From: Ruminococcus sp.
GTDB lineage: Bacteria > Bacillota > Clostridia > Oscillospirales > Acutalibacteraceae
DNA length: 64,000 nt
Assembly (NCBI GenBank): GCA_017416065.1
Contig: JAFQDM010000016.1
Coordinates: 47,241-111,240 of the forward strand
Reading direction: 5' to 3'
Shown: positions 1,354-21,977 of the stretch, piece after piece
How the letters are laid out: every line of letters begins with the position of its first letter
Position numbering within the stretch: position 1 is the stretch's first letter
The notes under the pieces: generated by a model
Seen by the model: only the letters and a program-made list of their open reading frames with translations
Told to the model about the DNA's origin: nothing
The model's database searches: none
Translations under genes and position numbers: made by a program

Positions 1354-2274
1354 ATGAAACTTCTTCTGACAGGTGCATTCAACTACACCGAAGAACAACT
1401 GAACACCCTCAGAGCAAGAGGATTTGAAACTATGTTCGTGCAAAACGAGCTGGAAGAACTACAGATCGACTGTTCAGAGTTTGATGCTGTGGTATGCAAC
1501 AACCTTTTTAAGTCAAATCCCCCTGAAAAGTTCACCTCCCTCAAGGCGGTACAGCTTACAAGCGCCGGCTTTGACAGAGCGCCGGTAGGCTACTTTGCCT
1601 CAAAGGGAATTGCCCTTTTCAATGCAAGAGGGGTCTACAGCACTCCCATGGCTGAATGGGTAATACTTAAAATTCTTGAGATATACAAACGCTCCCATAC
1701 CTTTTTTGCTCAGCAAAAAAAGAAGCTATGGCAAAAGCACAGAGACCTGCAGGAGCTTGCAGGCAAAAGGGTGCTCATAGTGGGCACGGGCTCTGTGGGA
1801 CTTGAATGTGCAAAGCGCCTGAAGGCCTTTGATGCAAAGGTACTGGGTACAGATATTTACGACAACAGCTCTCCCTTTGTGGATGAGTTTTACCCTATGG
1901 AAGCACTATCTGACGTACTCCCCACAGCAGATGTTGTGGTGCTCACCCTGCCCCTGACAGAAAAGACCAGAGGCCTATTTAGCGCAGACGTGCTCTCTCT
2001 TATGAAGGACACAAGCATCCTCGTAAATGTAGCCCGAGGCCCGATCATTGATGAGCAGGCTCTTACGGAGAAGCTCTCGGAAGGAAAATTCATGGGTGTG
2101 GCTCTTGACGTATTTGAGGAGGAGCCCTTGTCCGAGGCAAGCCCCCTATGGAGCATCCCACGAGTAATAATCACCCCGCACAACAGCTTTGTTTCTGACG
2201 GAAATTCAGACAGGATGTTCTCTCTTATCCTCAGAAATCTTACAGAGTTCGACTTTGGAAAGGCAACAAGATGA
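1354..2274 (+). CDS. D-isomer-specific 2-hydroxyacid dehydrogenase
   Basis: A 306-residue NAD-dependent dehydrogenase that interconverts a 2-keto acid and a D-2-hydroxy acid. The nucleotide-binding GTGSVG is at 144-149. The catalytic set is in place: Arg228 in NVARG, Glu257 in VFEEEP and His276 in ITPHNS. The N-terminal substrate domain is short and divergent. The family includes D-lactate, phosphoglycerate and hydroxypyruvate enzymes, and the substrate cannot be read from sequence. The ATG at 1354 has AAAGG 8 bases before it; a GTG at 1345 would overlap that site. It overlaps the next gene by ATGA, so the two are likely translationally coupled. In this setting it may make a hydroxy-acid substituent, but that is inference. 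Confidence 0.85.
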   Translation: MKLLLTGAFNYTEEQLNTLRARGFETMFVQNELEELQIDCSEFDAVVCNNLFKSNPPEKFTSLKAVQLTSAGFDRAPVGYFASKGIALFNARGVYSTPMAEWVILKILEIYKRSHTFFAQQKKKLWQKHRDLQELAGKRVLIVGTGSVGLECAKRLKAFDAKVLGTDIYDNSSPFVDEFYPMEALSDVLPTADVVVLTLPLTEKTRGLFSADVLSLMKDTSILVNVARGPIIDEQALTEKLSEGKFMGVALDVFEEEPLSEASPLWSIPRVIITPHNSFVSDGNSDRMFSLILRNLTEFDFGKATR

Positions 2275-3872
2275 AAAATACACAGGTTTACAAAAACGAT
2301 ATAAAATCCGTGCTGGATAAGGACCCTAAGTACCGTTCCTTTTTGTTCAAGCGTGGGTACCTTATCACGGACAATACAGAGCTTAACACAGAGGCCTATC
2401 CCTTCTACGGACTCTGGGAGGTACACTCTGCAGGCAAATACAGCATAATTGTTCATAAGGAGCAGGATTTTTCCATATGCCGAAAGGGCGACGTTACTGC
2501 AGTGATGATCGGTCACGCTTATGACCCTTTCCTGATGAAGCACGATGACAAAGAAATCCTGAGTGACTGCCTCAAGGCTTACCTTGAAGGCAAGGAGGCT
2601 TACTTTGACAAAATCAATTCCATCTCAGGTATGCATCTAATTGTAGTATTTGAGGGGGATAATTTCAGCGCCGTGCAGGATTGCGGAGGTATGCGCTCCT
2701 GCTATTTCGGCAATGCAAAGGGCAACCTTTACGTCACCTCTCACCCTCAGCTTGTGGCTGACCTGTGCTCGTTGAGCTTCGACCCGGATGTAGAGCTTCT
2801 TTTCTCCAAAAAGTTCTACACAATAGGTACACGATATATGCCCGGCAACATCACTCCCTACAAGGAGCTCAAGCGCCTGGGCGCCAACACCTACTTAAAC
2901 TTTGACGGCAGTTTCCGTATTGTTCGTTTTTATCCCGACAAGGTACTGCATGAAATTCCCAAGGAAAAATTTGATGAATATATAGACGAGATCGGCAGAC
3001 TTCTGCACAACAACATTGAGCTTTGCTCAAGAAAATGGGAAAGACCTGCCATCTCCCTCTCCGGCGGTACAGACAGCAAGACCACCCTTGCCTGTGCCAA
3101 CGGTCTTTACGACAAATTCTACTACTACAGCTTCCACGCAAAAAGTCAGGAGAAGGTGGATGCAACAGCAGCCCGCACTCTTTGTGAGCGCATAGGCGCC
3201 AAGCACAACACCTATCCCATCCCCGAGGACAACAGCGAGCTTGAAGATTTTGACTTCCTCAAAAAAATGCTCAATCACAACACCTCCTATGTTTCCCGTC
3301 CTGACGACCACGAAGCAAGAAAGTTCATATATATGTCCAAAGTCAACGACTTTGACGTTGAGCTTAAATCCTGGATTTCTGAAATAGGCAGAGCCTTCTG
3401 GAGCCGCAAGTACGGCCTGGAGCTGCCTAAGAAGCTTCACGAGAGACACTTCTCCATCTTCCAGAAGCGTTACTTCGGAAGCCCCTACCTTCTGCGCTGG
3501 GCAGACAGAATACACCGGGACTTCCTGCGGGAGATCGACCTTGTGGAGGCTCCCGAGGGTTATGAGCATCAGGATATGTTCTATTGGGAGGTACGCTTTG
3601 CCTCCTGGGGCACTATGGTTGAAAGTATGCACGACTTCTTTAACCTTGTGACTATGCCCTTTAACAACAGAAAGCTTATGGAGCTCTTCCTTGTGTTCCC
3701 TCACCATATGCGCAAGTCAGACACGGTCCACGCAATGGTAATTGACAAGATGAACAAGGAAATAAACGACTCGGGTATTGCCGTGCACAACAAATATTTG
3801 GGCGGCAAGAGAATCATCCTTGAGCATATATATTATAGATGGAGAACCATGTTCTTCCGTTCAAAGCTATGA
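2271..3872 (+). CDS. Asparagine synthase-like amidotransferase/ligase without the N-terminal nucleophile
   Basis: This 533-residue protein has the AsnB-type adenylating domain from about residue 230. The ATP pyrophosphatase loop is SLSGGTDSK (262-270), inside the family's SGGxDS pattern. The N-terminal half (about 50-210) looks like a degraded class II glutamine amidotransferase domain, with a recognisable PGNITPYKELKRL segment (191-203), but there is no Cys at position 2. It therefore cannot use glutamine as the standard enzyme does and might use free ammonia or join another amine. The protein is a plausible amide-forming enzyme for an acidic sugar or amino acid. It starts in the ATGA overlap with the dehydrogenase. 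The exact substrate is unknown. Confidence 0.8.
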   Translation: MKNTQVYKNDIKSVLDKDPKYRSFLFKRGYLITDNTELNTEAYPFYGLWEVHSAGKYSIIVHKEQDFSICRKGDVTAVMIGHAYDPFLMKHDDKEILSDCLKAYLEGKEAYFDKINSISGMHLIVVFEGDNFSAVQDCGGMRSCYFGNAKGNLYVTSHPQLVADLCSLSFDPDVELLFSKKFYTIGTRYMPGNITPYKELKRLGANTYLNFDGSFRIVRFYPDKVLHEIPKEKFDEYIDEIGRLLHNNIELCSRKWERPAISLSGGTDSKTTLACANGLYDKFYYYSFHAKSQEKVDATAARTLCERIGAKHNTYPIPEDNSELEDFDFLKKMLNHNTSYVSRPDDHEARKFIYMSKVNDFDVELKSWISEIGRAFWSRKYGLELPKKLHERHFSIFQKRYFGSPYLLRWADRIHRDFLREIDLVEAPEGYEHQDMFYWEVRFASWGTMVESMHDFFNLVTMPFNNRKLMELFLVFPHHMRKSDTVHAMVIDKMNKEINDSGIAVHNKYLGGKRIILEHIYYRWRTMFFRSKL

Positions 3873-3943
3873 TAAAAAGATCTTATTTTGGTTCATTAGG
3901 ATTCTTTAATTAAATTCAGCAATCTCACGAAAGGTTTGTTTTT

Positions 3944-5002
3944 GTGAACAAAAAAAGTATTCTTATTATTTTCGGAGGCAACTCCACGGAACACGAAGTT
4001 TCCTGCAGATCCGTTATGAATTTTGTAAATAACGTATCCTGTGAAAAATACGAAAAGCACTATGTGGGCATTAAGAAAAACGGCGACTGGGTTTACTACA
4101 CAGGCGACACAGCTTTGATTCCCACCGGTGAGTGGGTAAATGAGCCCTCAAACATTCCCTGCGTGCTCTCCCCCAACAAAAGTGCAAAGGGACTTCTGCT
4201 CCTTAACAAAAACAATACAATTATTAATATAGATGTGATCATTCCCGTGCTCCACGGCAAAAACGGAGAAGACGGCACCATTCAGGGACTATTTGAGCTT
4301 TGTGAGATCCCCTATGTAGGCTGCGGCGTTGTTGCCTCCGGTACCTCTATGGACAAAGCCTTCACAAAAATCATCGTAGACAGTCTTGGGAATATTCCTC
4401 AGGCAGACTATGTGCTTGTGCGCCAGGGAGACGACAACAGCTATGCTGAAAAAGCAGAAAACAAGCTGGGATATCCTATGTTTGTAAAGCCCTGCAAATC
4501 AGGCTCTTCCCAGGGAGTATCCAAGGCAGAAAACCGCTTGGAGCTTATAAAAGCAGTTGAGCTTGCTCTGACCCACGATTCCAAGGTGCTCATCGAGGAA
4601 GCCATCACAGGCCGCGAGCTTGAGTGTGCCGTGCTGGAAACCAAAGACGGCATAGTCTGCTCCAACGCAGGCGAGGCGGTAGCGGGAGATGTGTTTTACA
4701 GCTACGAAGCCAAGTACAACAACTCAGATTCAAAAACCGTCACAGCCCCACAGCTTCCCGAGGGAATCAACGAAAAGGTCAGGCAGTATGCCTCTGATAT
4801 ATTCAAGGTCCTTGGCGGAAACGGCCTGTCCCGAATCGACTTTTTCCTTGAGAAAGGCACAGACCGGGTAATTTTTAATGAGATAAATACTCTCCCTGGC
4901 TTTACCTCTATCAGTATGTATCCTATGATGATGGAGGTTGTGGGATACCCCATAGAAAAGCTTATGGACACGCTCATTGAAAATGCAGCTTACTCAAAAT
5001 AA
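3944..5002 (+). CDS. ddl: D-alanine--D-alanine ligase family ATP-grasp enzyme
   Basis: A 352-residue ATP-grasp ligase. It begins with FGGNSTEHEVS (10-20), has VLHGKNGEDGTIQG (102-115), and ends its metal site with NEINTLPGF (312-320). Specificity residues point to D-Ala-D-Ala: the loop reads YEAKY with Tyr258 where VanA has His, and TSISMYP (321-327) has Met325 where D-Ala-D-Ser ligases usually have Arg. The N-terminal half nevertheless resembles VanG-type ligases in style. The start is GTG at 3944, with AAAGG about 10 bases upstream. There is a 71-base gap to the previous gene with no clear promoter. Its place in a polysaccharide operon is unusual, because ddl normally sits with cell-wall genes; it could serve peptidoglycan or supply a D-Ala dipeptide to the polymer. 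Confidence 0.9.
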   Translation: MNKKSILIIFGGNSTEHEVSCRSVMNFVNNVSCEKYEKHYVGIKKNGDWVYYTGDTALIPTGEWVNEPSNIPCVLSPNKSAKGLLLLNKNNTIINIDVIIPVLHGKNGEDGTIQGLFELCEIPYVGCGVVASGTSMDKAFTKIIVDSLGNIPQADYVLVRQGDDNSYAEKAENKLGYPMFVKPCKSGSSQGVSKAENRLELIKAVELALTHDSKVLIEEAITGRELECAVLETKDGIVCSNAGEAVAGDVFYSYEAKYNNSDSKTVTAPQLPEGINEKVRQYASDIFKVLGGNGLSRIDFFLEKGTDRVIFNEINTLPGFTSISMYPMMMEVVGYPIEKLMDTLIENAAYSK

Positions 5003-5014
5003 CCGAAGCAGAAA

Positions 5015-5029: not shown

Positions 5030-5058
5030 ACATTATATATTGAAAGCAGGAACACGTT

Positions 5059-6177
5059 TTGAAATTTGTACTGATTTCGCCAAAGAACAGAACTGCGTGG
5101 AACTTCAGAGGAGACCTTATCAAGGACATCATAGCCATGGGTAATGAGGTTATAGTCACGGGTCCCAACGATATTGACGTTGAAAAAATAGAGGCTCTGG
5201 GGGCTCGGTTTGTAAGGATCCCCATGGAGAAGACAGGCGTCAATGCCCTCTCTGACCTGAAGTACATAAATGCTCTGAAAAAACTGTTTAAAGCAGAAAA
5301 GCCGGACATAACCTTCGGCTACACAATAAAGCCCGTAATCTACGGAGCCATTGCCGCAAAGCTTGCAAAGGTAAAGCGGAGATACTCTATGATAGCAGGT
5401 GCAGGCTACGTGTTTGTGGCAAAAACCGCAAAGGCAAAGGTCATCCGAATGATCGTAAAGACCCTCTACCGCATCGGCTTTGCCTGTGCACATAAGGTCG
5501 TATTTATGAATCCCGACGATATGAACGATTTTGTATCGCAAAGGCTTCTGAAAAAAGAGAAGTGCTGTATGGTCAACGGCTCGGGAGTCAACATGGAGCG
5601 CTTTGCCCGTGAGGAACTGCCAAAGGAGCCCGTGTTCTTTATGCTCTCCCGTGCACTAAGGTGCAAAGGAGTTGCAGAATATCTTGAGGCAGCGCAGATC
5701 GTTCATGATAAATATCCGGATGTACGGATTATGTTTTTGGGCGAGATCGATGAATCCATGCAGGATTCCTTAAAACAGCAAGAGGTTCAGAAGTACATAG
5801 ATTCAGGGGCTATTGAGTATTACCCCGAGCATCCTGACGTAAGAGTCTACTACCGCCAATGCTCCGTGTTCGTGCTGCCCTCCCACAGAGAGGGTATTCC
5901 CCGAACGGTGCAGGAAGCCATGGCTATGGGCAGACCGGTTATAGTCACAGATGCTCCCGGCTGCAGAGAAACAGTCAAAGACGGAGAAACAGGCTTCCTT
6001 GTTCCTGTTGAAGACCCGCAGGCTCTGGCTGACACTATGTGCAGGTTCATAGAGGAGCCTGAGCTGATTTCCAAATTCGGCCATGCAGGCTACGAATATT
6101 GTAAAGAAAAATTTGATGTACGCAAGGTAAACAAAGCCTTACTAACTCATCTTGATATGATAGAAACGGAGGAATAA
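5059..6177 (+). CDS. Glycosyltransferase family 4 (PglA/EpsD-like)
   Basis: A 372-residue GT-B glycosyltransferase that adds a sugar from a nucleotide donor to the growing lipid-linked repeat at the cytoplasmic face. The C-terminal donor domain shows the family signature [17 protein letters not shown] near residues 278-294, with the conserved Glu pair positions, followed by [10 protein letters not shown]. The N-terminal acceptor domain begins [20 protein letters not shown], as in EpsD/PglA/WfgS-type enzymes that often act on HexNAc acceptors. The start is TTG at 5059, chosen because AGCAGGA precedes it by 8 bases and the family N-terminus begins exactly there. Sugar specificity cannot be read. 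Confidence 0.88.
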
Positions 6178-6179
6178 AA

Positions 6180-7493
6180 ATGTCACTCTATCAGAAAATC
6201 GTAAACAAAGAAGAAAAAATATCCCTTGTCGGTCTTGGCTACGTGGGAATGCCCATTGCCGTCTCCTTCTCAAAAAAGGTGGACGTAATCGGTTTTGACG
6301 TTAACAAAGCAAAAATCGACCTTTATAAAAGCGGCATCGACCCCACTAAGGAGGTTGGTGACGAGGCTATCAAGAACTGTAAGGTAGACTTTACCTGCGA
6401 TCCCGAAAGACTCAGAGAAGCAAAGTTCCACATTGTTGCAGTTCCTACTCCCGTAAACGCAGACCACACACCCGACCTGTCCCCTGTTGAGGGTGCAAGC
6501 CATATCCTGGGCAAGCACCTGACCAAAGGCTCCATCGTTGTGTACGAATCCACGGTTTATCCCGGAGTTACGGAGGACGTTTGTGTTCCTATCCTTGAGG
6601 CAGAATCAGGCCTTAAGTGCGGAGTTGACTTTAAGATCGGCTATTCTCCCGAGCGTATTAACCCCGGTGACAAGGTGCACAGACTCGAGACCATCGTAAA
6701 AATCGTTTCAGGTATGGATGCAGAGACCCTGGAGGAGGTAGCACAGGTTTACGAGCTCGTTGTTGAGGCAGGAGTTCACAGAGCAGAGAGCATCAAGGTT
6801 GCAGAAGCTGCTAAGGTTATAGAAAATTCCCAGCGCGACATCAACATTGCATTTATGAACGAGCTTTCCATCATCTTCAACAAGATGAACATAGATACAA
6901 AGGCTGTGCTTGAGGCTGCAGGCACAAAGTGGAACTTCCTTAAGTTCTTCCCCGGTCTTGTTGGCGGACACTGCATCGGAGTTGACCCCTACTACCTTAC
7001 CTATAAGGCAGAGCAGATGGGCTACCACTCACAGATCATCCTCTCCGGCAGAAGAATCAACGACGATATGGGCAAATACGTTGTTGAATCCCTGGTAAAG
7101 AAGCTTATACAGGCAGACATCCCCGTTAAATCAGCTAAGGTCGCCATCCTGGGCTTTACCTTCAAGGAGAACTGCCCTGACACAAGAAACACAAGAATCA
7201 TTGATATAGTAAACGAGCTCAAGGAATACGGCATTACTCCCGTGATCGCAGATCCCGTTGCTGATGCAGACGAAGCAAAGCACGAGTATGGTATGGAGTT
7301 TGTTGATATGAACACGATCAAGGATATGGATGCAGTTATCCTTGCTGTATCCCACGAGGAGTTCTCCTCTCTTACCATGGAGGATATGGCAAAGTTCTAC
7401 TCAGGAGAGCACACAAAGGTGCTCCTTGACATCAAGGGACTTCTGAACAGAAAAGAATATGAAAACGCTGGCTATATTTATTGGAGGCTTTAA
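6180..7493 (+). CDS. tviB: UDP-N-acetylhexosamine 6-dehydrogenase (TviB/WbpO type)
   Basis: A 437-residue nucleotide-sugar dehydrogenase that oxidises C6 of a UDP-HexNAc to the uronic acid with two NAD molecules. The NAD site is GLGYVG (18-23). The catalytic Cys265 lies in [12 protein letters not shown]. Other family signatures are [13 protein letters not shown] and ESTVYPGV. The sequence style matches TviB/WbpO (UDP-GlcNAc or UDP-GalNAc oxidation) better than WecC, though WecC-like activity on UDP-ManNAc is possible because a 2-epimerase is encoded downstream. It begins 2 bases after the previous stop, and the partner 4-epimerase follows directly, the arrangement known from Vi-antigen-type loci. 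The product would give the polymer amino-uronic acids. Confidence 0.9.
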
Positions 7494-7495
7494 TA

Positions 7496-8470
7496 ATGGG
7501 TTATAAACATCTTAAATTCCCCGAAGATTCAGTTTTCCTCGTAACAGGCGGAGCAGGCTTTATCGGCTCCAACCTGTGTGAGGCTATACTCGATATGGGA
7601 TACACAGTCCGCTGCCTGGACAACCTTTCCACAGGCAAAATGCAGAATATGGACAGCTTTATCAACAATCCCCGTTTTACTTTTATAGAGGGAGACATCC
7701 GCGACCTTGATACTTGTATGAAGGCTTGCGAGGGTGTAGACTTTGTGCTGAATCAGGCAGCATGGGGCAGTGTTCCCCGTTCTATTGAAATGCCTCTTCT
7801 TTATGAAGATATTAACATAGGCGGCACACTTAATATGATGGAAGCCGCAAGACAGCAGGGAGTCAAGAAATTTGTATACGCTTCCTCTTCCTCCGTATAC
7901 GGAGACGAACCCAATCTGCCTAAAAAGGAAGGCAGAGAAGGCAACCTTCTCTCTCCCTACGCTCTTACAAAGATGGTAGACGAGGAATACGGCAAGCTCT
8001 ACACAAAGCTCTACGGACTCGATACCTACGGAATGCGCTACTTCAACGTTTTCGGCAGAAGACAGGATCCTGACGGCGCCTACGCTGCCGTTATTCCCAA
8101 ATTCATCAAGCAGCTCCTCCGCGGCGAGGTTCCCACCATCAACGGCGACGGAAAGCAGTCCAGAGACTTCACCTACATTGAAAACGTTGTTGAGGCTAAC
8201 CTGAAGGCCTGCCTTGCTCCCTCAGAGGCAGCAGGCGAAGCATTCAACGTAGCCTATGGCGGCAGAGAATTCCTCATTGATATTTACTACGGTCTTACCA
8301 AGGCACTCGGAAAAGACGTAGAGCCTAACTTCGGACCCGACAGAGCAGGCGATATCAAGCATTCCAACGCCGATATTTCCAAAGCCCGCGAGCTTCTGGG
8401 CTACGACCCTGACTACAGCTTTGAGCGCGGTATTGCTCTGGCTATTGAGTGGTACAAAGAAAACCTGTAA
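7496..8470 (+). CDS. tviC: UDP-N-acetylglucosamine (uronic acid) 4-epimerase, TviC/WbpP type
   Basis: A 324-residue extended short-chain dehydrogenase/reductase. The NAD motif GGAGFIG is at 18-24 and the catalytic YxxxK is Tyr155-Lys159 in SPYALTK, with the ASSSSVYG segment upstream. Family members invert C4 of UDP-GlcNAc or UDP-GlcNAcA to the galacto form. The N-terminus is extended by a few residues before the first beta strand, as in WbpP. The ATG at 7496 is preferred over TTG at 7481, because GGAGG at 7483-7487 sits right before it; the TTG would lie inside the ribosome site. It follows the dehydrogenase by 2 bases. Together they should make UDP-GalNAcA. Confidence 0.88.
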   Translation: MGYKHLKFPEDSVFLVTGGAGFIGSNLCEAILDMGYTVRCLDNLSTGKMQNMDSFINNPRFTFIEGDIRDLDTCMKACEGVDFVLNQAAWGSVPRSIEMPLLYEDINIGGTLNMMEAARQQGVKKFVYASSSSVYGDEPNLPKKEGREGNLLSPYALTKMVDEEYGKLYTKLYGLDTYGMRYFNVFGRRQDPDGAYAAVIPKFIKQLLRGEVPTINGDGKQSRDFTYIENVVEANLKACLAPSEAAGEAFNVAYGGREFLIDIYYGLTKALGKDVEPNFGPDRAGDIKHSNADISKARELLGYDPDYSFERGIALAIEWYKENL

Positions 8471-8509
8471 TTAACATATCAATACTACCGATTGGGGGTG
8501 GCACGATAA

Positions 8510-9547
8510 ATGAAAATTGCAATTCATCAGAACGAAAAAATGTTTAAGCATGAAAGTGTATGGATTCCCGAATGCAAGGAATACTGCAGGGAACACGGTA
8601 TTGAATGTGATATTATAAGTTGCTATAGCTCAGATATTATAAACAAGCTCAAGAACTACGACGCTGTGCTGTGGACAATACAGAACTACGTTAAGGCTGA
8701 CACCATGGAAGCTCGCAGTATCCTCAACAGCGCAAAGGAAATAGGACTTAAGGTTTTCCCGGATTTCAGCACCTCGTGGCATTTTGACGATAAAATTGCA
8801 GAAACCTATCTTCTCCAGGCAATTGGTGCTCCCATACCTAAAAGCTGGGTGTTCTATATGGAGGAAGAGTGCATCAACTGGCTGGAAAAAGAGGCTAAGT
8901 ACCCTCTTGTAGCCAAGCTCAGATGCGGCTCAGGCTCAAATAACGTAAAGCTGCTGAAAAACTTTGCAGAAGCAAAAAAGTATGCCCACACCATGTTTAC
9001 AAAAGGGCTCAATCCCACTCCCGGTGTGCTATACAAGGCTTACTCTAAGATGCAATCCTCAAAAAGCATTAAAATGGCAATAAGCCGCATCAAAAAACTG
9101 CCTGATTTTTTGCGCACCCGCAAAAATGCAAAAAGAATGGGTACAGAATCCGGTTATTGCTACTTTCAGGAATTTATTGAGAACAACGGCTACGATATGA
9201 AGATAGTTGTTATCGGAGACAAGCTCATCCCCCTTTGCCGAAACACCAGAAAGGGCGACTGGAGAGCCTCCGGAGGCGGAGATGTATACACAGATATCTC
9301 TATGGTTACAGAGCAGATCCTCAACTCTGCCTTTGAAACCTACGACAAATGCAGGTTCCAATGTATCGGACTTGACTACGTTGTTAACAAAAACACAGGC
9401 AAAGGCCTTATTATTGAGATGTGCTACGGCTTTGACTTCCGTGCACTATCCCAGGTTGGCGGATACTTTGACCGTGAGGGTAATTGGCACGAGGACAAAA
9501 ACCTCAGCATCCCCAGAGAAATCATACACTATGTTCTGAATCACTGA
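8510..9547 (+). CDS. RimK-like ATP-grasp protein of unknown substrate
   Basis: A 345-residue protein with an ATP-grasp fold. The ATP-binding strand is YPLVAKLRCGSGSNNV (about 138-153). A RimK-like block follows: QEFIENNGYDMKIVVIGDKL (about 222-241) and then RKGDWRASGGG. A C-terminal LIIEMCYGFDFR provides the metal-binding acid region. Members of this fold join a carboxylate, via an acyl phosphate, to an amine. The acceptor is not known, but a uronic acid carboxylate made by the two genes just upstream is an attractive candidate. GGGGGTGG at about 8493-8500 serves as the ribosome site. A methyl or acyl transfer role cannot be excluded. Confidence 0.75.
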   Translation: MKIAIHQNEKMFKHESVWIPECKEYCREHGIECDIISCYSSDIINKLKNYDAVLWTIQNYVKADTMEARSILNSAKEIGLKVFPDFSTSWHFDDKIAETYLLQAIGAPIPKSWVFYMEEECINWLEKEAKYPLVAKLRCGSGSNNVKLLKNFAEAKKYAHTMFTKGLNPTPGVLYKAYSKMQSSKSIKMAISRIKKLPDFLRTRKNAKRMGTESGYCYFQEFIENNGYDMKIVVIGDKLIPLCRNTRKGDWRASGGGDVYTDISMVTEQILNSAFETYDKCRFQCIGLDYVVNKNTGKGLIIEMCYGFDFRALSQVGGYFDREGNWHEDKNLSIPREIIHYVLNH

Positions 9548-9573
9548 TCTGCTTGTCTGACGGGAGGATTATT

Positions 9574-10413: not shown

Positions 10414-10414
10414 A

Positions 10415-13789: not shown

Positions 13790-15103
13790 ATGGATACTAA
13801 CACCCGCAAAGCATACATAGACAAAGTCGTAGACCTTGATAAAAGATCCGCAAAACCTCTCCACAAAGCAACCGTAATACTGCGCAGGGTATTTAAAGAG
13901 TTATTCTCAGGCGATAAGGCCTTGCGTAAGGATCTCAAGAATTTTCTTCAAAAGAATTTATTTAAAAAGAATGTAAAGCACAAGAAGAATTATGAGTTTG
14001 ATAACCTTTTTAAGGAAAAGCAAAAACTCATTTCCGAATACATAGATAAAAATCGAGCCGATAACAAGAGTATGCCCTGTGTTATCTTTTTCGGATACCC
14101 CGACTTCAGAACCAGCGGCGGAGGCCAGAGAAGCTGGCAGATGGCAAAATCCTTCTTCCGCACAGGCTACCACGTAGAGTACTACCACGAGGGCACTTTG
14201 CAAAAAGACGACGTTAATTGGCCGGCACAGATAGCATTTCCTCTCTACTATACAGATATTGACACAATATTCCGCAATATTCCCGAGGATGCAACCATAA
14301 TCTTTGAAGCTCCGTCTTATAAATACGCAGATATTCTTCGCAAGGCACACGAAAAAAGAATTTATACTATTTACGAGCATATTGACAATTGGGAGACCTC
14401 CCTTGGCAGCGGCTTCTTTGAGCCGGAGCTGTTCAAAGAATTTCTGAACACTTGCAACTGCATTGTTGCAACGTGCAAAGGACTTGTGGATTTAATCGCA
14501 AAATATACAGACAGACATGTCCTTTATTCTCCCAACGCCGTAGATAATCATCTATATAAAAAAGAGGTAGATTATGACCGTCCGTCTGACTTAGTCTGCG
14601 GCAGAAAAACTCTCCTCTATTTCGGCGCACTCACCGGTGAATGGCACAATTGGGAAATTGTAAGAAAAACCGCATTGGAATGTCCTGATTGTACCTTTAA
14701 TCTTATCGGCCGAGGTATACCCGAGGCTTTCAAGTCAGAAAAGCCCCACAATATCCACTTGCTGGGACCAAAAAAACAGACAGAGCTTCCTGCCTATCTG
14801 GCAAACTGCGATTTTGCACTTTTACCCTTTGATACAGGAGAGATCAGCAGATACGTATCCCCTTTGAAAATATTTGAGTATCTGGCTCTTCAAGTCCCTG
14901 TTCTTGCAACTCCCTTGGATGATATCATAGGTTACCCCAACACTGTGATCTCCAACGACTACAAAGAATGGGTCAAAACAATAAACAGCGATTTTAAGGC
15001 TACGGATACCACAGCCTTTACTGAAAACAACTGCTGGGATGCCAGATGCAGGCAACTTATTGAGTACAAAGAGAAGTATTTTTCAGAAAGCAAAAAGGAA
15101 TGA
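13790..15103 (+). CDS. Glycosyltransferase, GT-B fold (family 4-like)
   Basis: A 437-residue protein. After a basic, poorly conserved N-terminal arm of about 95 residues comes the acceptor domain, starting VIFFGYPDFRTSGGGQRSWQ. The donor domain ends with RYVSPLKIFEYLALQVPVLA (about 357-376), where the conserved Glu of family 4 lies in KIFEYLA, then TPLDDIIGYPNTV. This signature supports a retaining GT-B enzyme. GGAGG is 7 bases upstream of the ATG. The N-terminal arm is long compared with relatives and rich in Lys and Arg (Asn-Phe-Leu-Gln-Lys type repeats), suggesting membrane association by charge. The sugar is unknown. Confidence 0.8.
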   Translation: MDTNTRKAYIDKVVDLDKRSAKPLHKATVILRRVFKELFSGDKALRKDLKNFLQKNLFKKNVKHKKNYEFDNLFKEKQKLISEYIDKNRADNKSMPCVIFFGYPDFRTSGGGQRSWQMAKSFFRTGYHVEYYHEGTLQKDDVNWPAQIAFPLYYTDIDTIFRNIPEDATIIFEAPSYKYADILRKAHEKRIYTIYEHIDNWETSLGSGFFEPELFKEFLNTCNCIVATCKGLVDLIAKYTDRHVLYSPNAVDNHLYKKEVDYDRPSDLVCGRKTLLYFGALTGEWHNWEIVRKTALECPDCTFNLIGRGIPEAFKSEKPHNIHLLGPKKQTELPAYLANCDFALLPFDTGEISRYVSPLKIFEYLALQVPVLATPLDDIIGYPNTVISNDYKEWVKTINSDFKATDTTAFTENNCWDARCRQLIEYKEKYFSESKKE

Positions 15104-15114
15104 GCGTGTAGTTT

Positions 15115-16218
15115 ATGAAAATTATGATGGTTTTCGGAACAAGACCGGAAGCAATAAAAATGTGTCCCCTTGTAAACGAACTCAAATCCAGAAAAGAAGT
15201 TGAGGTTATAGTTTGCGTTACGGGCCAGCACCGTCAGATGTTAGACCAGGTGCTCTCTGCTTTCTCTGTTGTGCCTGATTATGACCTTTCAATAATGAAG
15301 GAAAAGCAGACACTTTTTGATATCACTGTCTCCATTCTTAACAAAATCAAAACCGTTCTGGAGAAGGAAAGACCTGACACTGTACTTGTTCACGGAGATA
15401 CCACCTCAGCATTTGTAACCGCACTTGCTTGTTTTTATATGCAAATTCCTGTAGGTCACGTAGAGGCAGGCCTCAGAACCTACAACATATACTCCCCTTA
15501 CCCGGAGGAGTTCAATCGAGAGGCAATCAGCCTTGTCTCCAAATACAACTTTGCTCCCACCGAAAAGGCTAAACAGCACCTTATTAATGAAAACAAAGAT
15601 ATAAACAGCATCTATGTAACAGGAAATACCGCCATAGATGCTCTTAAAACAACCGTAACAAACGACTATCAGAATGAAATATTGGATTGGTGCAAGGATT
15701 CACGTATGATCCTCATAACTGCTCACAGAAGAGAGAATCTGGGCGAGCCTATGCACAATATGTTCAGGGCGATTCGCCGTATAGTTGACGAAAACCCGGA
15801 CGTAAAGGCTGTATATCCCATTCACAAAAATCCTGTGGTGCGCGAAGCCGCAAACAAAGAGCTCAGCGGATGCGAACGAATCCGACTTATTGAGCCTTTG
15901 GATGTATTTGATTTTCATAACTTTATAGCAAGAAGCTTCTTTGTGATAACCGATAGCGGCGGAATTCAGGAGGAGGCTCCCTCTTTAGGCAAGCCTGTGC
16001 TGGTTATGCGCGATACTACCGAACGCCCTGAAGGCATAGAAGCAGGAACTCTCAAGCTTGTGGGAACAGATGAGGAGCCCATTTATAATAATTGCAGCAT
16101 CTTGCTAAACGATCCTGCTCAGTATGAAAAAATGAGCAAAGCCTCAAATCCCTACGGAGACGGATTTGCCAGCAAAAGAATTGCCGATATTCTTATTTAC
16201 GGCAAAACAGATATCTAA
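15115..16218 (+). CDS. wecB: UDP-N-acetylglucosamine 2-epimerase (non-hydrolysing)
   Basis: A 367-residue enzyme that reversibly converts UDP-GlcNAc to UDP-ManNAc in the cytoplasm. The family motifs are intact: FGTRPEAIKM (8-17), VTGQHRQMLDQVL (41-53), HGDTTSAF (96-103), GHVEAGLRTYN (115-125), PYPEEFNREA (129-138) and TDSGGIQEEAPSLGKPVLVM. The length is normal for MnaA/WecB. The ribosome site is weak: AAAAAGGAATG lies about 15 bases upstream. Combined with the TviB-like dehydrogenase, UDP-ManNAcA is a possible product as well as UDP-GalNAcA. It could also feed teichoic-acid linkage units, because MnaA is often shared between pathways. Confidence 0.93.
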   Translation: MKIMMVFGTRPEAIKMCPLVNELKSRKEVEVIVCVTGQHRQMLDQVLSAFSVVPDYDLSIMKEKQTLFDITVSILNKIKTVLEKERPDTVLVHGDTTSAFVTALACFYMQIPVGHVEAGLRTYNIYSPYPEEFNREAISLVSKYNFAPTEKAKQHLINENKDINSIYVTGNTAIDALKTTVTNDYQNEILDWCKDSRMILITAHRRENLGEPMHNMFRAIRRIVDENPDVKAVYPIHKNPVVREAANKELSGCERIRLIEPLDVFDFHNFIARSFFVITDSGGIQEEAPSLGKPVLVMRDTTERPEGIEAGTLKLVGTDEEPIYNNCSILLNDPAQYEKMSKASNPYGDGFASKRIADILIYGKTDI

Positions 16219-16242: not shown

Positions 16243-17259
16243 ATGAATAACGATATTATGGTCAGCATCTGCTGCCTTGTGTTTAACCACAAAGATTACA
16301 TCAGACAGGCTTTAGACAGCTTCCTGATGCAAAAGACAAATTTCAAATTTGAAGTCCTCATAAACGACGACTGCTCCACAGACGGCACAACTGACATAAT
16401 CAGAGAATACGAAGCCAAATATCCGGACATAATCAGACCCCTATACCACGAAGAAAACCAGTATTCAAAAAGTACCCGCACAGGTAATATGATGTCCATC
16501 CTCTTTAATTTCCCAAGAGTCAGGGGCAAATACGTTGCCATGTGCGAGGGTGACGACTTCTGGACAGATGAGAATAAGCTTCAGAAGCAATTTGACATTA
16601 TGGAGCAGAATCCTGACTGTGCCTTTGCAGCCCATACAGTCAGATGTACCAACGAAAAGGGCGAGCCTTTAACGGAGATAATCCCACTAAAGGGTGATGT
16701 AAAATCCGGAATGCTCACAAGTAAAGAAGCAATTAGCGGAATTTGCCGTCTGCCTTATATGTTCCAGACCTCAAGCTATTTCTTCAGAAGCGAGTATATT
16801 CCCGAAATAACAGAGCAGACGCCTGAATTCTTTGAGTACTCCTCTTCCATGGACGTGCTCTTTATGCTTTATTTTTCCTCCAAAGGCTGTGTCTACTTTG
16901 CAGACGAGGAAATGTCCTGCTACAGACTGCAGAGCTCATCCAGCATTATGAGTGCACTGAACGCCAAAGATAAAGCAAAAAATCAGAAGATGATAGATCA
17001 CTATACAAACCATCTTAAAAGCCTCAGAGCTTACGATGAATACACAGGCAAACTGTATCAGGAAAGCATCGGCTTTGCCGTGCGCCGAGCAGAATACCAC
17101 CTGATGCTTCAAAAGGGCGACTACAAGCACCTTTTCAGCAAAAAATATAAGGATGTGGCACCCTTGTTTCTCTCAAAATCAAGCAAAAAGGAACTGCTTC
17201 AGCTGAGGCTCTTCTCTGTTTGCCCGTGGCTTGTCAAACTCAAAAAACACAAAGGATAA
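16243..17259 (+). CDS. Glycosyltransferase family 2
   Basis: A 338-residue GT-A glycosyltransferase. Motifs are MVSICCLVFNHKDYIRQALD (6-25), NDDCSTDGTTD (41-51), and the metal site MCEGDDFWTD (100-109). The EGDDFWTD variant is common in capsular loci of gut Firmicutes and Streptococcus. The family signature in the middle is FFRSEYIPEI, and the C-terminus is basic. It lies 24 bases after the epimerase gene and 5 bases before the flippase gene, so it is clearly within the operon. Sugar specificity is not visible. Confidence 0.87.
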   Translation: MNNDIMVSICCLVFNHKDYIRQALDSFLMQKTNFKFEVLINDDCSTDGTTDIIREYEAKYPDIIRPLYHEENQYSKSTRTGNMMSILFNFPRVRGKYVAMCEGDDFWTDENKLQKQFDIMEQNPDCAFAAHTVRCTNEKGEPLTEIIPLKGDVKSGMLTSKEAISGICRLPYMFQTSSYFFRSEYIPEITEQTPEFFEYSSSMDVLFMLYFSSKGCVYFADEEMSCYRLQSSSSIMSALNAKDKAKNQKMIDHYTNHLKSLRAYDEYTGKLYQESIGFAVRRAEYHLMLQKGDYKHLFSKKYKDVAPLFLSKSSKKELLQLRLFSVCPWLVKLKKHKG

Positions 17260-17264
17260 AGGCT

Positions 17265-18878
17265 ATGAACGAAAACAACAGCTCCCCAAATATATCTGAA
17301 GACAGCAACGCAGATTCTATTTTGCAATCCGCAAGTGTTAACACAAAAGAAAAAACTATCAAGGGTCTCTTCTGGGGATATCTTGAAAAATTAGGCGGAG
17401 AGCTTGTGGCTCTTGTAGTTTCCGTTGTTCTTGCCAGACTCTTAGGCCCTGAAGCCTACGGAATTATTCCGCTTATTATTGTGTTCACCTCTATTCTTGG
17501 GGTTATTGTGCAGGGTGGATTCGGCTCTGCACTCATTCAGAAAAAGGATGCAGATAAAATAGATTTCTCCACTGTATTTTACTTTCAGTTGACGCTTTCT
17601 GCTCTGCTGTACACAGGTATGTTCTTTGCAGCACCCCTTATTTCTGCTTTCTACAACAACCCGTATCTTACCTCTATGGTCAGGGTACTGTCCTTATCCC
17701 TCATTATAGGCGCGATAAACAACGTTCAGCACGCGTATATCTCCAAAACCATGCAGTTTAAGAAATTCTTCTTTGCCTCCTTTACGGGTACTGTAGTTTC
17801 CGGAATCGTTGGAGTCGTGCTGGCATTTGTTATTACAAGCAGCACGGGTAACCCAGTGTACGGCGCATGGGCACTTATTGCCCAGAAGCTTACAGACCAC
17901 ATCATAGATACGGTCTTTCTGTGGTTTACGGTTAAATGGAGACCTGCTCTCAAATTCTCCTTTAAAAGGCTCAAGTCCCTTTTTTCCTACGGATGGAAGA
18001 TACTTGTTTCAAGCTTTATAGATACTGTCTACAAGGATATCAACACACTTATCATCGGCAAGGCATACACATCCTCAGACCTTGCATACTACAACAAGGG
18101 TAACGCTTACCCTAAGCTTATAATGAACAACCTGAACCAGGCGATTCAGCACGTGCTTTTCCCTGCCCTTTCAAGCCATCAGGAAAACACGGAAAAGGTC
18201 AAAAGTATGACCCGCCGTGCAATGAAAACAAGCTCTTACCTTGTTTTCCCTGCTATGATGGGTTTTGCCGCAATTGCAGAATCCTTCCTCTACATTTTGC
18301 TGGGTGAGGCCTGGCTTCCTGCAGTACCCTTTATGTGGATAGCCTGCTTTAACTTTGCAATGTGGCCCATACACACAACAAATCTGCAGGCAATTCAGGC
18401 AATGGGCAAAAGCGGAACCTTTCTTGTTGCAGAGATCATCAAGAAAACTTCAAACCTTTTGTTCCTTGCAGCAGGTGTATTTATTGCCTGGTCCCTTGCT
18501 TTTGAAAGCACAACGGACTCCGTAATAGTAATTGCACTCAGCTCTGTTTTTGCAGAGATCGTCTGTGTGTTTGTAAACGCCTGGCCAAACAAAAAGATCA
18601 TAGGCTACGGCTTTTTGCAACAGTTCAGGGACGTACTCCCTGCCGTGCTTATGTCCGTTATAATGGGTGCGGCTGTGTTCGCCGTAAACCTCATTCCCTT
18701 TTCTGCGCTTATTGCAGATCCTTTTGCAACTGCGGTCATAAAGCTCATAGCTCAGACCCTCACCGGTGTTGGAGTATATCTGCTTCTGTCCGTTGTGTTT
18801 AAAGTTGACAGCTTCAGATACATCCTTGCAACAATAAAGGAATTCAAGAATAAAAAGAAAAAGAAGTCTACCAATTAA
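17265..18878 (+). CDS. Wzx-type flippase, MOP superfamily
   Basis: A 537-residue membrane protein with about 14 hydrophobic segments and a polar N-terminal tail of roughly 40 residues. It should move lipid-linked repeat units across the cytoplasmic membrane. The start of the conserved part reads KTIKGLFWGYLEKLGGELVA, followed by LARLLGPEAYGIIPL, which is the TuaB/RfbX-like pattern. The C-terminus ends in a Lys-rich tail. The ATG at 17265 is preferred over earlier in-frame codons, because AAAGG is 10 bases before it and the upstream frame overlaps the preceding gene. A second, dissimilar flippase is at 29297-30811. Confidence 0.9.
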   Translation: MNENNSSPNISEDSNADSILQSASVNTKEKTIKGLFWGYLEKLGGELVALVVSVVLARLLGPEAYGIIPLIIVFTSILGVIVQGGFGSALIQKKDADKIDFSTVFYFQLTLSALLYTGMFFAAPLISAFYNNPYLTSMVRVLSLSLIIGAINNVQHAYISKTMQFKKFFFASFTGTVVSGIVGVVLAFVITSSTGNPVYGAWALIAQKLTDHIIDTVFLWFTVKWRPALKFSFKRLKSLFSYGWKILVSSFIDTVYKDINTLIIGKAYTSSDLAYYNKGNAYPKLIMNNLNQAIQHVLFPALSSHQENTEKVKSMTRRAMKTSSYLVFPAMMGFAAIAESFLYILLGEAWLPAVPFMWIACFNFAMWPIHTTNLQAIQAMGKSGTFLVAEIIKKTSNLLFLAAGVFIAWSLAFESTTDSVIVIALSSVFAEIVCVFVNAWPNKKIIGYGFLQQFRDVLPAVLMSVIMGAAVFAVNLIPFSALIADPFATAVIKLIAQTLTGVGVYLLLSVVFKVDSFRYILATIKEFKNKKKKKSTN

Positions 18879-18904
18879 ACCTTTAGTGAAGGGCGGCGAG
18901 CCTC

Positions 18905-19825
18905 TTGCTGTGTAATTCTCCCATAGAGTTTATTGACAATCTTTATGATAATCAAATATACATAAAGCGCGAGGACAAGCTTCCTTTCTCCTTTGGAGGC
19001 AACAAGGTGCGCTTTGCCCATGCCTTTGTACGGGATATGCGTGCTCAGGGTAAAAATGCCCTCATTGCCTACGGCTCAAAAAGCTCAAACCTGTGCCGCG
19101 TACTGGCACAGCTTTGCTTTGACGAAAGCATACCCTGTTCGGTTGTATTCAGCGAGTCGGAAAATCACATCACAAACAACTCAAAAATTGTGAACACCCT
19201 GGGTGTGCGTGAATATTGTTGCGAGAAATCAGAGGTTGCAAAAACCGTGGCAAAAGCCATCAATGACTTTGAGCAGGAGGGCTACAAGCCTTATTATATT
19301 TACGGCACAACCCTCGGCACAGGCAACGAGCTTACTCCGGTAAGAGCCTACACAGCTGTTTATGATGAAATTTCCGAATACGAAAAATCAGAAGCTGTAA
19401 GCTTTGACTACATATTCCTTGCAACAGGTACCGCCGCCTCTTACTCAGGGCTTATGTGCGGTGCTGCTCAAAAAGGGCATAGCCCCAATATTATAGGAAT
19501 TTCCGTTGCAAGGGATGCAAACAGGTGCAAGGAGATAATCAAAGAAAACACAAGGCTTTTCTTTGGAAAAGATCTGCACCTTTCCCCCGTTATTACCGAC
19601 AAATATCTCTTTGGAGGATACTCCTTCACCTGCGACGAAGAGCTTTCGGAAATTGATTTTATCTTTGACAAATATCAAATTCCCCTTGACCCCACCTACA
19701 CAGGCAAGGCGTTCTTCGGAATGAAGGAGTATCTGAAGAGTCATAACATAAAAGATAAAAACATTCTGTTTATCCACACAGGAGGTTATCCTATCTTCTG
19801 TGACTATAAAAACATTAAGCTTTGA
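18905..19825 (+). CDS. Pyridoxal-phosphate enzyme, ACC deaminase / D-cysteine desulfhydrase type
   Basis: A 306-residue fold-type II PLP protein. The cofactor lysine lies in KREDKLPFSFGGNKVRFAHA (22-41), in the GGNK motif of ACC deaminases and D-cysteine desulfhydrases. A Ser/Asn segment GSKSSNLCRVLAQL follows, and the C-terminal HTGGYPIF (about 289-296) matches the family end. Relatives act on D-amino acids or small cyclic amino acids, and the substrate is not readable here. The start is TTG at 18905, with GGGCGG about 8 bases upstream; no ATG fits the family N-terminus. It opens a three-gene block with an ATP-grasp protein and an aminotransferase, consistent with making and attaching an unusual amino acid. 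Confidence 0.75.
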   Translation: MLCNSPIEFIDNLYDNQIYIKREDKLPFSFGGNKVRFAHAFVRDMRAQGKNALIAYGSKSSNLCRVLAQLCFDESIPCSVVFSESENHITNNSKIVNTLGVREYCCEKSEVAKTVAKAINDFEQEGYKPYYIYGTTLGTGNELTPVRAYTAVYDEISEYEKSEAVSFDYIFLATGTAASYSGLMCGAAQKGHSPNIIGISVARDANRCKEIIKENTRLFFGKDLHLSPVITDKYLFGGYSFTCDEELSEIDFIFDKYQIPLDPTYTGKAFFGMKEYLKSHNIKDKNILFIHTGGYPIFCDYKNIKL

Positions 19826-19837
19826 GGCTGATATTCT

Positions 19838-20863
19838 ATGAACATACTACTCACCTCTGCAGGCAGACGAAGCTATCTGGTCAAATACTTCAAGGAAGCT
19901 CTGGGCGACTGCGGACTTGTCCACGCGGCAAACTCCACCCCTCTTTCCACAGCTTTTCTCTATGCAGACAAAACCGTCGTCACTCCTCTTATCTATGACG
20001 ATGAATACATTCCCTTCCTCCTTGACTACTGCAAAAATAACAGCATCAATGCCATAATAAGCCTTTTTGACATAGACCTTATGGTGCTTGCTCAAAACAA
20101 GTCAGCTTTTGAGGCACAGGGAATCCGCGTTATTGTTGCAGATGAAAATGCAATCGATACCTGCAACGACAAGTGGAACACCTACCGCTTCTGCCTTGAA
20201 AACTCCATCAACACTCCCAAAACATATATAAGCACAGACTCCGCTTTGGAAGATATAAGAAATGGCAAGCTTGCATTTCCTTTATATGTAAAGCCTCGCT
20301 GGGGTATGGGCTCTCTCTCCGTTTTCTGTGCAGAAAATGAGGAGGAGTTGCGCATTTTCTACAGCAAATCAAAGCGAGAGATAGAAAACAGCTATCTGAA
20401 ATATGAATCTGCGGCAAACCGTGCCGAGTGCGTGCTTATACAGGAGTCCCTTAAGGGTCAGGAATACGGCATAGACGTTATTAACGACCTTGACGGAAAC
20501 TACCAAAACACCATCATCAGGCAAAAATATGCAATGCGCTCCGGCGAGACAGATGCGGCAATCATTGCAGAAAACGATGCCATCAAAGCTTTGGGAAAAA
20601 AGATCAGCCGCAAGCTGCGCCACCCTGCCAACCTGGATGCCGATGTTTTCCTTGTTGACGGTGTGCCTTATCTTCTGGAGATGAATGCACGCTTTGGAGG
20701 CGGATACCCCTTCTCTCACGTAGCAGGAGTCAATATGCCTCTTGCAATAATCCGTTGGCTCAGCAAAGCTTATGTTTCTCCTGATATCCTATCCGCTAAA
20801 GTAGGCGTTATGGCATCCAAGGAACTTGTCATCAGCGTCTTTCCTCAAGATTTTTTGAAATGA
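19838..20863 (+). CDS. CarB-like ATP-grasp protein
   Basis: A 341-residue protein with a small N-terminal Rossmann-like part (LTSAGRRSYLVKYFKEAL, 5-22) and an ATP-grasp domain. Visible ATP-grasp features are PLYVKPRWGMGSLSV (about 147-161), VLIQESLKGQEYGIDVINDL (about 201-220), and the terminal metal site LLEMNARFGGGYPFS. This is the architecture of PylC-like and carbamoyl-phosphate-synthetase-like ligases that are common in capsule loci. It should join a carboxylate to an amine, with ATP. Thirteen bases separate it from the PLP gene, and the aminotransferase follows within a few bases. The substrate is unknown. Confidence 0.8.
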   Translation: MNILLTSAGRRSYLVKYFKEALGDCGLVHAANSTPLSTAFLYADKTVVTPLIYDDEYIPFLLDYCKNNSINAIISLFDIDLMVLAQNKSAFEAQGIRVIVADENAIDTCNDKWNTYRFCLENSINTPKTYISTDSALEDIRNGKLAFPLYVKPRWGMGSLSVFCAENEEELRIFYSKSKREIENSYLKYESAANRAECVLIQESLKGQEYGIDVINDLDGNYQNTIIRQKYAMRSGETDAAIIAENDAIKALGKKISRKLRHPANLDADVFLVDGVPYLLEMNARFGGGYPFSHVAGVNMPLAIIRWLSKAYVSPDILSAKVGVMASKELVISVFPQDFLK

Positions 20864-20873
20864 GGTGTCCTCT

Positions 20874-21977
20874 TTGAGTGACAAAATTTTGGTAACACGC
20901 TCCTCCATTCCTTCCGTTTCTGAGTATATGGAGGAAGTGTCCTCTGTTTTTGAATCGCATTTCCTTACAAATATGGGGCCAAAGCACGACAAACTGTGCG
21001 AGGGGCTCACTGAATATCTGGGTGTGCCGAACATTTCTCTATTCTCAAACGGCCATATGGCGCTGGAGCTTTGCCTGCAGGCCTTCGACCTGAAGGGTGA
21101 GGTAATTACCACCCCCTTCACCTTTGCATCCACCACCCATGCTATTGTGCGCTGCGGGCTCACCCCCGTATTTTGCGACATTGACCCTGTAACATATACT
21201 ATCGACGCCTCCAAAATCGAGGCGCTAATTACAGATAAGACCTGTGCCATTGTACCCGTTCACGTTTACGGTAACCTTTGCGACACAGAAAAAATAGAAG
21301 AAATTGCAAAAAAGTACAACCTGAAGGTCATCTATGATGCCGCCCACGCCTTTGGGGTAAAAAAAGACGGAATCGGTGCAGGCAATTTCGGAGATGCCTC
21401 TATGTTCAGCTTTCACGCTACAAAGGTATTCAACACCATTGAAGGCGGTGCCGTAACCTACAAGGACAAGGCTCTGGGAGAAAAGCTCCACATACTGCGC
21501 AACTTCGGAATTCTTGACCAGGAAACGGTCTGCGACGTGGGCGCAAATGCCAAGATGAACGAATTCCAGGCAGCTATGGGTATTTGTAACCTCCGTCATA
21601 TTGACGAAGAGATCGCAAAGCGCAAAGCTGTATATGACCGATATATGGAACACCTTGAGGGCATAAAGGGACTGACCCTGTGCAAGATCCCCTCAGATGT
21701 AAAATCAAACTACGCATATCTGCCTATAGTTTTTGACGAAGCTAAGTTTAATAAAACAAGAGATGAGGTTTTTGCAGATCTTGCAAGCGAGAATATCTTT
21801 GCAAGAAAGTACTTCTACCCCTTGGTGCAGGACTATGATTGCTATAAGAGCATCTACGATTCAAGCAAAACCCCGGTTGCAAAATTCATCGCAGACAGAG
21901 TGCTCACCCTGCCAATGTACGCAGACCTGAGCTTTGAAGCAGTAGATAAGATCTGCTCCATCATCCTGAACAAATAA
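20874..21977 (+). CDS. DegT/DnrJ/EryC1-type aminotransferase
   Basis: A 367-residue PLP aminotransferase of the sugar-aminotransferase family. Motifs are TTPFTFASTTHAIVRCGL (82-99), DAAHAFG (155-161, with the cofactor-contacting Asp) and FSFHATKVFNTIEGG, with the Schiff-base Lys in HATK. Members usually convert a keto-deoxy nucleotide sugar to the amino sugar. TTG at 20874 is preferred, with GAGGTG ending 6 bases before it; a GTG at 20865 would lie inside that ribosome site. With RmlA and RmlB downstream, the dTDP-4-keto-6-deoxyglucose intermediate could be its substrate, giving an amino-deoxy sugar. Confidence 0.85.
   Translation: MSDKILVTRSSIPSVSEYMEEVSSVFESHFLTNMGPKHDKLCEGLTEYLGVPNISLFSNGHMALELCLQAFDLKGEVITTPFTFASTTHAIVRCGLTPVFCDIDPVTYTIDASKIEALITDKTCAIVPVHVYGNLCDTEKIEEIAKKYNLKVIYDAAHAFGVKKDGIGAGNFGDASMFSFHATKVFNTIEGGAVTYKDKALGEKLHILRNFGILDQETVCDVGANAKMNEFQAAMGICNLRHIDEEIAKRKAVYDRYMEHLEGIKGLTLCKIPSDVKSNYAYLPIVFDEAKFNKTRDEVFADLASENIFARKYFYPLVQDYDCYKSIYDSSKTPVAKFIADRVLTLPMYADLSFEAVDKICSIILNK

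Follow-up and report, generated by a model that had tools for sequence, protein, structure and literature searches.

A recurring aldolase, dehydrogenase and AsnB-like ligase module and a relocated D-Ala-D-Ala ligase in a predicted amide-decorating polysaccharide operon of Ruminococcus sp.

The 64,000-nucleotide window analyzed here (positions 47,241 to 111,240 of contig JAFQDM010000016.1 in the Ruminococcus sp. assembly GCA_017416065.1) contains a polysaccharide operon in which genes for a D-2-hydroxyacid dehydrogenase and an AsnB-like ligase are adjacent. With a HpcH/HpaI-type aldolase encoded elsewhere in the window, these proteins compose a module that recurs in other loci, and the operon additionally harbors a D-Ala-D-Ala ligase (Ddl) gene in place of the native ddl. 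The enzymes of the operon probably hang amide-linked groups on sugars. An earlier note on this DNA had proposed, from a concentration of ligase genes, that a uronic acid polymer is decorated with amino acids or peptides. The amide theme of that interpretation stands, whereas the peptide reading leans on Ddl, which appears to lie outside the pathway; the decoration may be another amine or a hydroxyacid instead of an amino acid or peptide.

The best overall explanation, to which an even chance is assigned, combines amide decorations made by a TupA-like protein, a hydroxyacyl module and a PALP/PylC-like pair, with Ddl as a passenger. The operon would direct assembly of a Wzx/EpsG-type surface polysaccharide whose repeat unit would contain an amino-uronic acid, formed by a TviB/TviC pair, and other amino sugars. 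The TupA-like ligase would amidate the uronic carboxyl. The aldolase and dehydrogenase may produce a short D-2-hydroxyacid, the carboxyl group of which would be adenylated by the AsnB-like enzyme and transferred to the amine of a sugar. The PALP/PylC-like pair may supply and ligate an amino acid, for which the likeliest acceptor would be the DegT product, a 4-amino sugar, and Ddl would merely ride along, making D-Ala-D-Ala for peptidoglycan. The new element is the recurring module, the product of which is proposed from gene content. That its three enzymes constitute an undescribed, widespread pathway by which a 2-hydroxyacid is joined, through an adenylate-forming AsnB relative, to the first sugars of surface polysaccharides, with the aldolase sometimes incorporated into the glycosyltransferases that initiate the repeat unit, is a more tentative proposal with a slightly less than even chance. 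Under this proposal, the TupA-like and PALP/PylC-like proteins would contribute to a capsule of gut Clostridia that bears three amide decorations. If true, glycans on the surface of common Clostridia of the gut and rumen bear acyl groups that are missed by sugar-based prediction. No paper on the module was found in the open-licence literature among the matches listed.

Recurrence and composition of the proposed hydroxyacyl module

The dehydrogenase gene (1345-2274, plus strand; alternative ATG at 1354; PF02826/2-Hacid_dh_C, 8e-54) and the AsnB-like gene (2271-3872, plus strand) are separated by the ddl gene from a GT4 glycosyltransferase gene (5059-6177, plus strand; PF00534) of a type that is a recurrent neighbor of the module. 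Recurrence was assessed in 68 loci derived from one scan of genome contigs with an alignment of AsnB-like proteins, which yielded AsnB-selected stretches of up to 17.6 kb, some of them short. Judged by title, the loci are mostly from Clostridia, but also from one Desulfobacteraceae, one Bacteroidales, one Victivallales and one Pacearchaeota bin and from Jeotgalibacillus; the bins may contain contaminants. On the same strand and within 2.5 kb of the AsnB-like gene were genes for GT4 proteins (53 loci), the dehydrogenase (41), the aldolase (37) and a sugar transferase (30). Where at least 2.6 kb of upstream sequence was available (55 loci), 40 loci possess an aldolase or dehydrogenase gene within 2.5 kb upstream and 34 possess both within 3.5 kb. 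The order sugar transferase, aldolase, dehydrogenase, AsnB-like ligase and GT4, without Ddl, was read in G002 and likewise in G019, in which the GT4 gene is cut by the contig end, and G013 has aldolase, AsnB-like ligase and GT4. The genome and locus sets overlap: G002, G019 and G013 are loci L090, L064 and L101, and G439 and G607 share identical aldolase coordinates. The whole module also is encoded by Ruminococcus bromii YE282 (loci L022 and L090), a named isolate, and the chemistry therefore is testable.

The aldolase gene of the window (36825-37709, minus strand; PF03328, 3.7e-13) is the only match in its genome, and heads a second polysaccharide cluster, 33 kb from the AsnB-like gene. The aldolase lies within the stretch in 40 of the 68 loci. 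Fifteen genomes were checked among the 28 loci without it, and 14 of these carry an aldolase gene outside the stretch, sometimes on the same contig, the sole miss being the Desulfobacteraceae bin, so that the aldolase was found for 54 of the 55 loci examined. Among 39 relatives, which include the genome of the window, all four AsnB genomes carry the aldolase compared to eight of 39 overall (p=0.0009), and among 295 genomes of the order all six with strong AsnB matches do so compared to 12 of 295 overall (p=1e-9, or 8e-8 when all nine AsnB-type matches are counted), although these p-values overstate independence, given the relatedness of the loci and the overlap between sets. The earlier note had nominated the operon as a candidate undescribed system. 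The recurrence of the AsnB-like module agrees with this proposal, but the novelty resides partly in the aldolase, which was outside its gene list.

Several observations, in addition to the overstated independence, weigh against the proposed pathway. Six of the 12 aldolase genomes in the order are without AsnB, three of the nine AsnB-type matches in the order, all of them weaker, are without aldolase, and neither aldolase nor dehydrogenase is present in 22 of the 68 stretches, some of which are short. One further genome, G006, has the sugar transferase, aldolase and dehydrogenase genes with no AsnB match, and its contig stops just beyond the dehydrogenase gene. The aldolase thus occurs without the AsnB-like gene, whereas the AsnB-like gene without the aldolase is rare. 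Moreover, the AsnB-like protein scores just below the PF00733 cut-off (20.1 bits versus 21) and far below that of TIGR01536 (45.3 versus 267.1), and aldolase position 56 is Tyr in 25, Phe in six, Ile in five and His in one of 40 sequences. This position, equated by eye and outside the alignment to solved aldolases, is presumed to be that of the catalytic His near an N-terminal D-x-E-H motif. As the presumed catalytic His is retained in only one of 40 sequences, an aldol reaction is not assured.

The AsnB-like protein shares the PP-loop, [S/T]GGxDS, and an AsnB-type match with asparagine synthetase B and β-lactam-synthetase-like ligases, and residues G265, G266, D268 and S269 are invariant in 44 of 44 sequences; position 264 is Ser in the window (SGGTDS) and Thr in the consensus. 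It differs from asparagine synthetase B in its scores below the family cut-offs, in its linkage to the aldolase and dehydrogenase, and in lacking the N-terminal nucleophile Cys of the amidotransferase: the protein begins MKNTQV and there is no Cys in invariant or 90% columns among the 44 sequences. A sequence search for solved relatives of the AsnB-like and TupA-like proteins gave nothing useful. All 40 dehydrogenase sequences retain R231, E260 and H279, which we take to be the catalytic triad, and the grouping of this enzyme with the AsnB-like ligase and aldolase points to a hydroxyacid. Aldolase residues E145, D171 and R93 likewise are invariant in 40 of 40; E145 and D171, which are within the stretch aligned to solved aldolases, are assumed by comparison with HpaI to be metal ligands, and R93 the substrate Arg. 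Fusion proteins with the aldolase at the C-terminus occur in four genomes, preceded by GT4 in G040 and G010 and by sugar transferase plus GT4 in G041 and G039; these four of the 12 stretches fetched were chosen for their long frames, and the aldolase search also gave a 677-amino-acid frame in G675. The four fusions connect the aldolase with the onset of repeat-unit assembly.

Alternatively, the three module enzymes might make and attach a different group, such as an ester, a keto-acid acetal or a modified nucleotide sugar, and not the amide of a hydroxyacid. The aldolase-glycosyltransferase fusions, a pyruvyl transferase gene in the operon and loss of the His presumed to be catalytic are compatible with such a product, but the invariance of the presumed metal-ligand and Arg positions, the dehydrogenase triad and the PP-loop residues argues against it, and we consider this the foremost alternative, if an unlikely one.

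Ten tested proteins from beside the module comprise seven of the PF14397 family, two Mur-ligase-like proteins and one antiporter. Na+/H+ antiporter-type genes (PF03553) lie between the AsnB-like and GT4 genes in L100 (9632-11005) and L109 (9618-11003), and Mur-ligase-like genes are near the AsnB-like gene in L057 (10597-12189), beside a PF14397-type ATP-grasp gene, and in L053 (9661-11142) without one.

Candidate ligases for the uronic acid and amino sugars

The closest curated models for the nucleotide-sugar dehydrogenase (6180-7493, plus strand), predicted to convert UDP-HexNAc to UDP-HexNAcA, and the C4 epimerase (7481-8470, plus strand) are TviB and TviC of the Vi antigen, but both proteins score below the NCBIfam equivalog cut-offs (501.4 versus 592 and 301 versus 760, respectively). 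The predicted uronic acid amidoligase is a TupA-like ATP-grasp protein (10388-11374, plus strand) with a PF14305 score of 154.8 bits (3.5e-45) against a cut-off of 25. TupA-like genes occur in nine of the 68 loci, all nine being among the 15 loci with TviB, a statistic that is weakened because blocks are inherited together. The sugar-transfer-associated ATP-grasp family PF14397 showed no preference for TviB (four of 14). According to excerpts of two reports, a TupA-like domain in Campylobacter is a glucuronate amidoligase that joins serinol-phosphate or ethanolamine-phosphate to chain-bound glucuronate (PMC11800379, PMC11800397). An amide on the uronic carboxyl, as the earlier note had suggested, fits with this precedent, with the presence of the TupA-like gene among uronic acid genes and with the restriction of TupA to TviB loci. 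The TupA-like protein is evidence for amide decoration of a uronic acid, with ligation itself predicted from the genomic link to TviB.

The C. jejuni HS:2 cluster (Cj1438, with a C-terminal TupA-like domain, Cj1437, Cj1436 and Cj1435) resembles the operon in its TupA-like ATP-grasp protein, capsule locus and uronic acid synthesis, and other enzymes of that cluster are described in the excerpts as making the amine. It differs in that the amine is serinol-phosphate or ethanolamine-phosphate, with a HAD phosphatase, that the ligase forms a fusion with a GT2 protein, and that the excerpted description includes no AsnB/aldolase/dehydrogenase module; the proteins were likened by family and not by alignment. 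TupA also is linked to teichuronopeptide in Bacillus halodurans (PMC8153356), which has the TupA family and a uronic acid polymer in common with the operon. However, that polymer pairs poly-γ-glutamate with polyglucuronate, whereas an amino-uronic Wzx/EpsG heteropolymer is predicted for the window, in which no poly-glutamate synthase family was detected among 20 genes scanned.

The PALP enzyme (18905-19825, plus strand) is nearest to the D-cysteine desulfhydrase/CuyA group, below the cut-offs of those models, and is encoded in only five of the 295 genomes of the order, that of the window included. The adjoining PylC/CarB-like ligase (19838-20863, plus strand) consists of an N domain followed by an ATP-grasp domain, exceeds the NF009404 cut-off (343.3 versus 316), has a solved relative (2pn1) and contains an E-x-N motif (EMNARFGGG). 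The two genes are neighbors in four of the five loci, including the window, and no PylC-like gene was seen in the 3.9-kb stretch of the fifth. Thus, the PALP/PylC-like genes and the AsnB-like ligase gene to which the earlier note drew attention recur in other loci, as a pair and a module, respectively. The PALP reading frame of two loci also encodes an N-terminal GNAT acetyltransferase domain (L156, 546-1982, PF13302; L157, 1486-2943, recognized by eye). The next gene specifies a DegT sugar aminotransferase (20865-21977, plus strand) that is nearest to DesI, albeit below the cut-off (315.9 versus 650).

The RimK-like ATP-grasp protein (8510-9547, plus strand) passes the PF08443 cut-off with its C-terminal part only (25.4 bits versus 21). 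Both available sequences have E-M-C in place of E-x-N, presumably the usual metal motif of RimK-type ligases, which counts further against the best overall explanation. A role as a widespread decorating ligase was rejected, as the protein was present only in its own genome among the 39 relatives and 398 genomes of the phylum. One relative (72% identity) is encoded in L074, and the protein was not found in viral contigs.

A cell-wall ligase within the operon

The operon Ddl (3944-5002, plus strand) turns out, on the basis of its sequence and genomic context, to be an ordinary cell-wall enzyme that has been relocated. The protein scores 384.7 bits with NF002528 (cut-off 262), is below the cut-offs of the VanG model (344.2 versus 495) and of the lactate-ligase models among the best 25 models, and has an EAKY omega-loop, which we take to denote the D-Ala type. 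A PF07478 search of its genome (G000, a 1.86-Mb assembly that is 85% complete and in which the window is on contig C13) retrieved this one full Ddl and four weak matches in other frames. By comparison, 20 of 23 other members of the genus have exactly one Ddl match each, at 30-36% identity, and the three without a match are assemblies that are 75-89% complete. The native gene adjoins a Mur ligase gene in five of six loci read, the sixth contig stopping just after Ddl, and the order in G016 and G009 is Mur ligase, Ddl and a gene for a 138-amino-acid UPF0047 protein. The native site was inspected in G000 and is present in the assembly: the Mur ligase and UPF0047 orthologs, with respective identities of 55-56% and 86-87% to the G016 and G009 proteins, are separated by 25 bp, and ddl is absent between them. 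The operon gene is retained in three further genomes (L074, L085 and L099; 77, 82 and 87% identical to that of the window), and no other full Ddl was found in G000, G039, G040 or G041. In a tree, the four operon proteins form one clade (100/100) that falls with nine Ddls from the order, and six native copies are placed separately (100/100). Four of these nine order-level genes are just upstream of a MurI-like gene, one of which was scanned (PF01177). As the operon protein is the sole full Ddl, the native site is devoid of ddl and the clades are separate, an incoming Ddl has displaced the native gene and now resides in the polysaccharide operon. It shares with housekeeping Ddls the NF002528 score, omega-loop and sole-copy status, but differs from them in location.

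The earlier note had counted Ddl as a participant in the polymer pathway and held that ligases acting in other pathways would undermine its proposal. Participation of Ddl is not borne out, and the protein has been dropped from the polymer pathway. A VanH/VanA-like D-Ala-D-lactate pair formed by Ddl and the adjoining dehydrogenase was considered and rejected on account of the lactate-ligase scores and omega-loop; in addition, the dehydrogenase is present in 43 loci, in 40 of which there is no Ddl. The three other operon-Ddl genomes have a 36% identical AsnB-like protein near 8000-9575, following TviB (L074 and L099) or GT4 (L085), a position unlike that in the window. Counts of ATP-grasp genes can mislead when a cell-wall Ddl resides in a capsule operon, and a capsule switch could affect an essential gene when ddl is within the operon.

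An improbable alternative is that all of the ligases, Ddl among them, build an amino acid or short peptide side chain on the uronic acid in the manner of teichuronopeptide. The TupA family, uronic acid genes and several ligases do share one operon, TupA has the aforementioned tie to B. halodurans, L053 and L057 have Mur-ligase-like genes adjoining that for the AsnB-like protein, and linked ATP-grasp ligases are said often to work successively (PMC4431377). Nevertheless, Ddl is the only full copy found, with the native gene gone, no poly-glutamate synthase family was among the genes scanned, and the profiles used detected no additional ligase in 44 of the 68 module loci. Ligase-profile matches besides AsnB, a few of them weak (for example, 27 and 87 bits), numbered one in 17 loci, two in five and three in two, compared to four (Ddl, RimK, TupA and PylC) in the 25-kb run of the window. 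The baseline consists of AsnB-selected loci with stretches shorter than this run, and not random capsule loci. Accordingly, the assertion that the ligase content is far above that of a normal capsule locus holds insofar as the window exceeds every locus of this set, but is tempered by the longer run, the AsnB-selected baseline and the housekeeping nature of one of the four.

An ordinary mosaic capsule locus in which ligases gathered by chance, with no joint pathway, is similarly improbable: capsule loci mix freely and both the RimK-like protein and the PALP enzyme are rare, but recurrence is seen for each of three associations, the module, TupA with TviB, and PALP with PylC. A dual Ddl that serves peptidoglycan and also provides a D-Ala-D-Ala dipeptide for the polymer is very improbable, as, despite retention of the gene in the operons of three other genomes, position is its only tie to the polymer, and Ddl is present in just two of the 15 TviB loci (L074 and L099) and one of the nine TupA loci (L099).

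Remaining genes of the operon and the second cluster

The preferred reading of amide decoration is set in a plus-strand gene run from 608 to 26888, in which successive chosen genes are spaced by -80 to 71 bp. Every gene named in the earlier note is an open, full-length plus-strand reading frame with family profile matches, some below cut-offs, and by these matches the family calls are upheld with corrections: the AsnB-like protein is below cut-off and Cys-less, TviB and TviC are below equivalog level, and Ddl is bona fide. The operon extends beyond the span first described in both directions. Upstream it is headed by an initiating bacterial sugar transferase (PHPT; 608-1321; PF02397, 222.8 bits), and downstream of 21977 it continues with a GT2 glycosyltransferase gene (21981-22970; PF00535) and rmlA-, rmlC- and rmlB-type genes for a dTDP-4-keto-6-deoxy sugar (23018-25524; PF00483, PF00908 and PF16363/PF01370), the RmlA and RmlB names having been read from the sequence. 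Homologs of these three genes also are grouped in L085. The intervening plus-strand genes specify two further GT2 glycosyltransferases (9571-10413, with the longest frame from 9484, and 16243-17259; both PF00535), an EpsG-family polymerase-like membrane protein (11427-12539; PF14897), the polysaccharide pyruvyl transferase (12569-13759; PF04230), a GT-B type glycosyltransferase (13790-15103; PF13692, 35.4 bits), a UDP-GlcNAc 2-epimerase (15115-16218; PF02350) and a Wzx-type flippase (17220-18878; PF13440). A promoter and terminator scan yielded nothing informative.

The second polysaccharide cluster (26938-37709, minus strand) includes, in addition to the aldolase, three GT4-type genes and genes for EpsG, pyruvyl transferase, flippase, FrhB-type and PF14907 proteins. 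Parts of this cluster are conserved in G010, G020, G039, G040 and G041.

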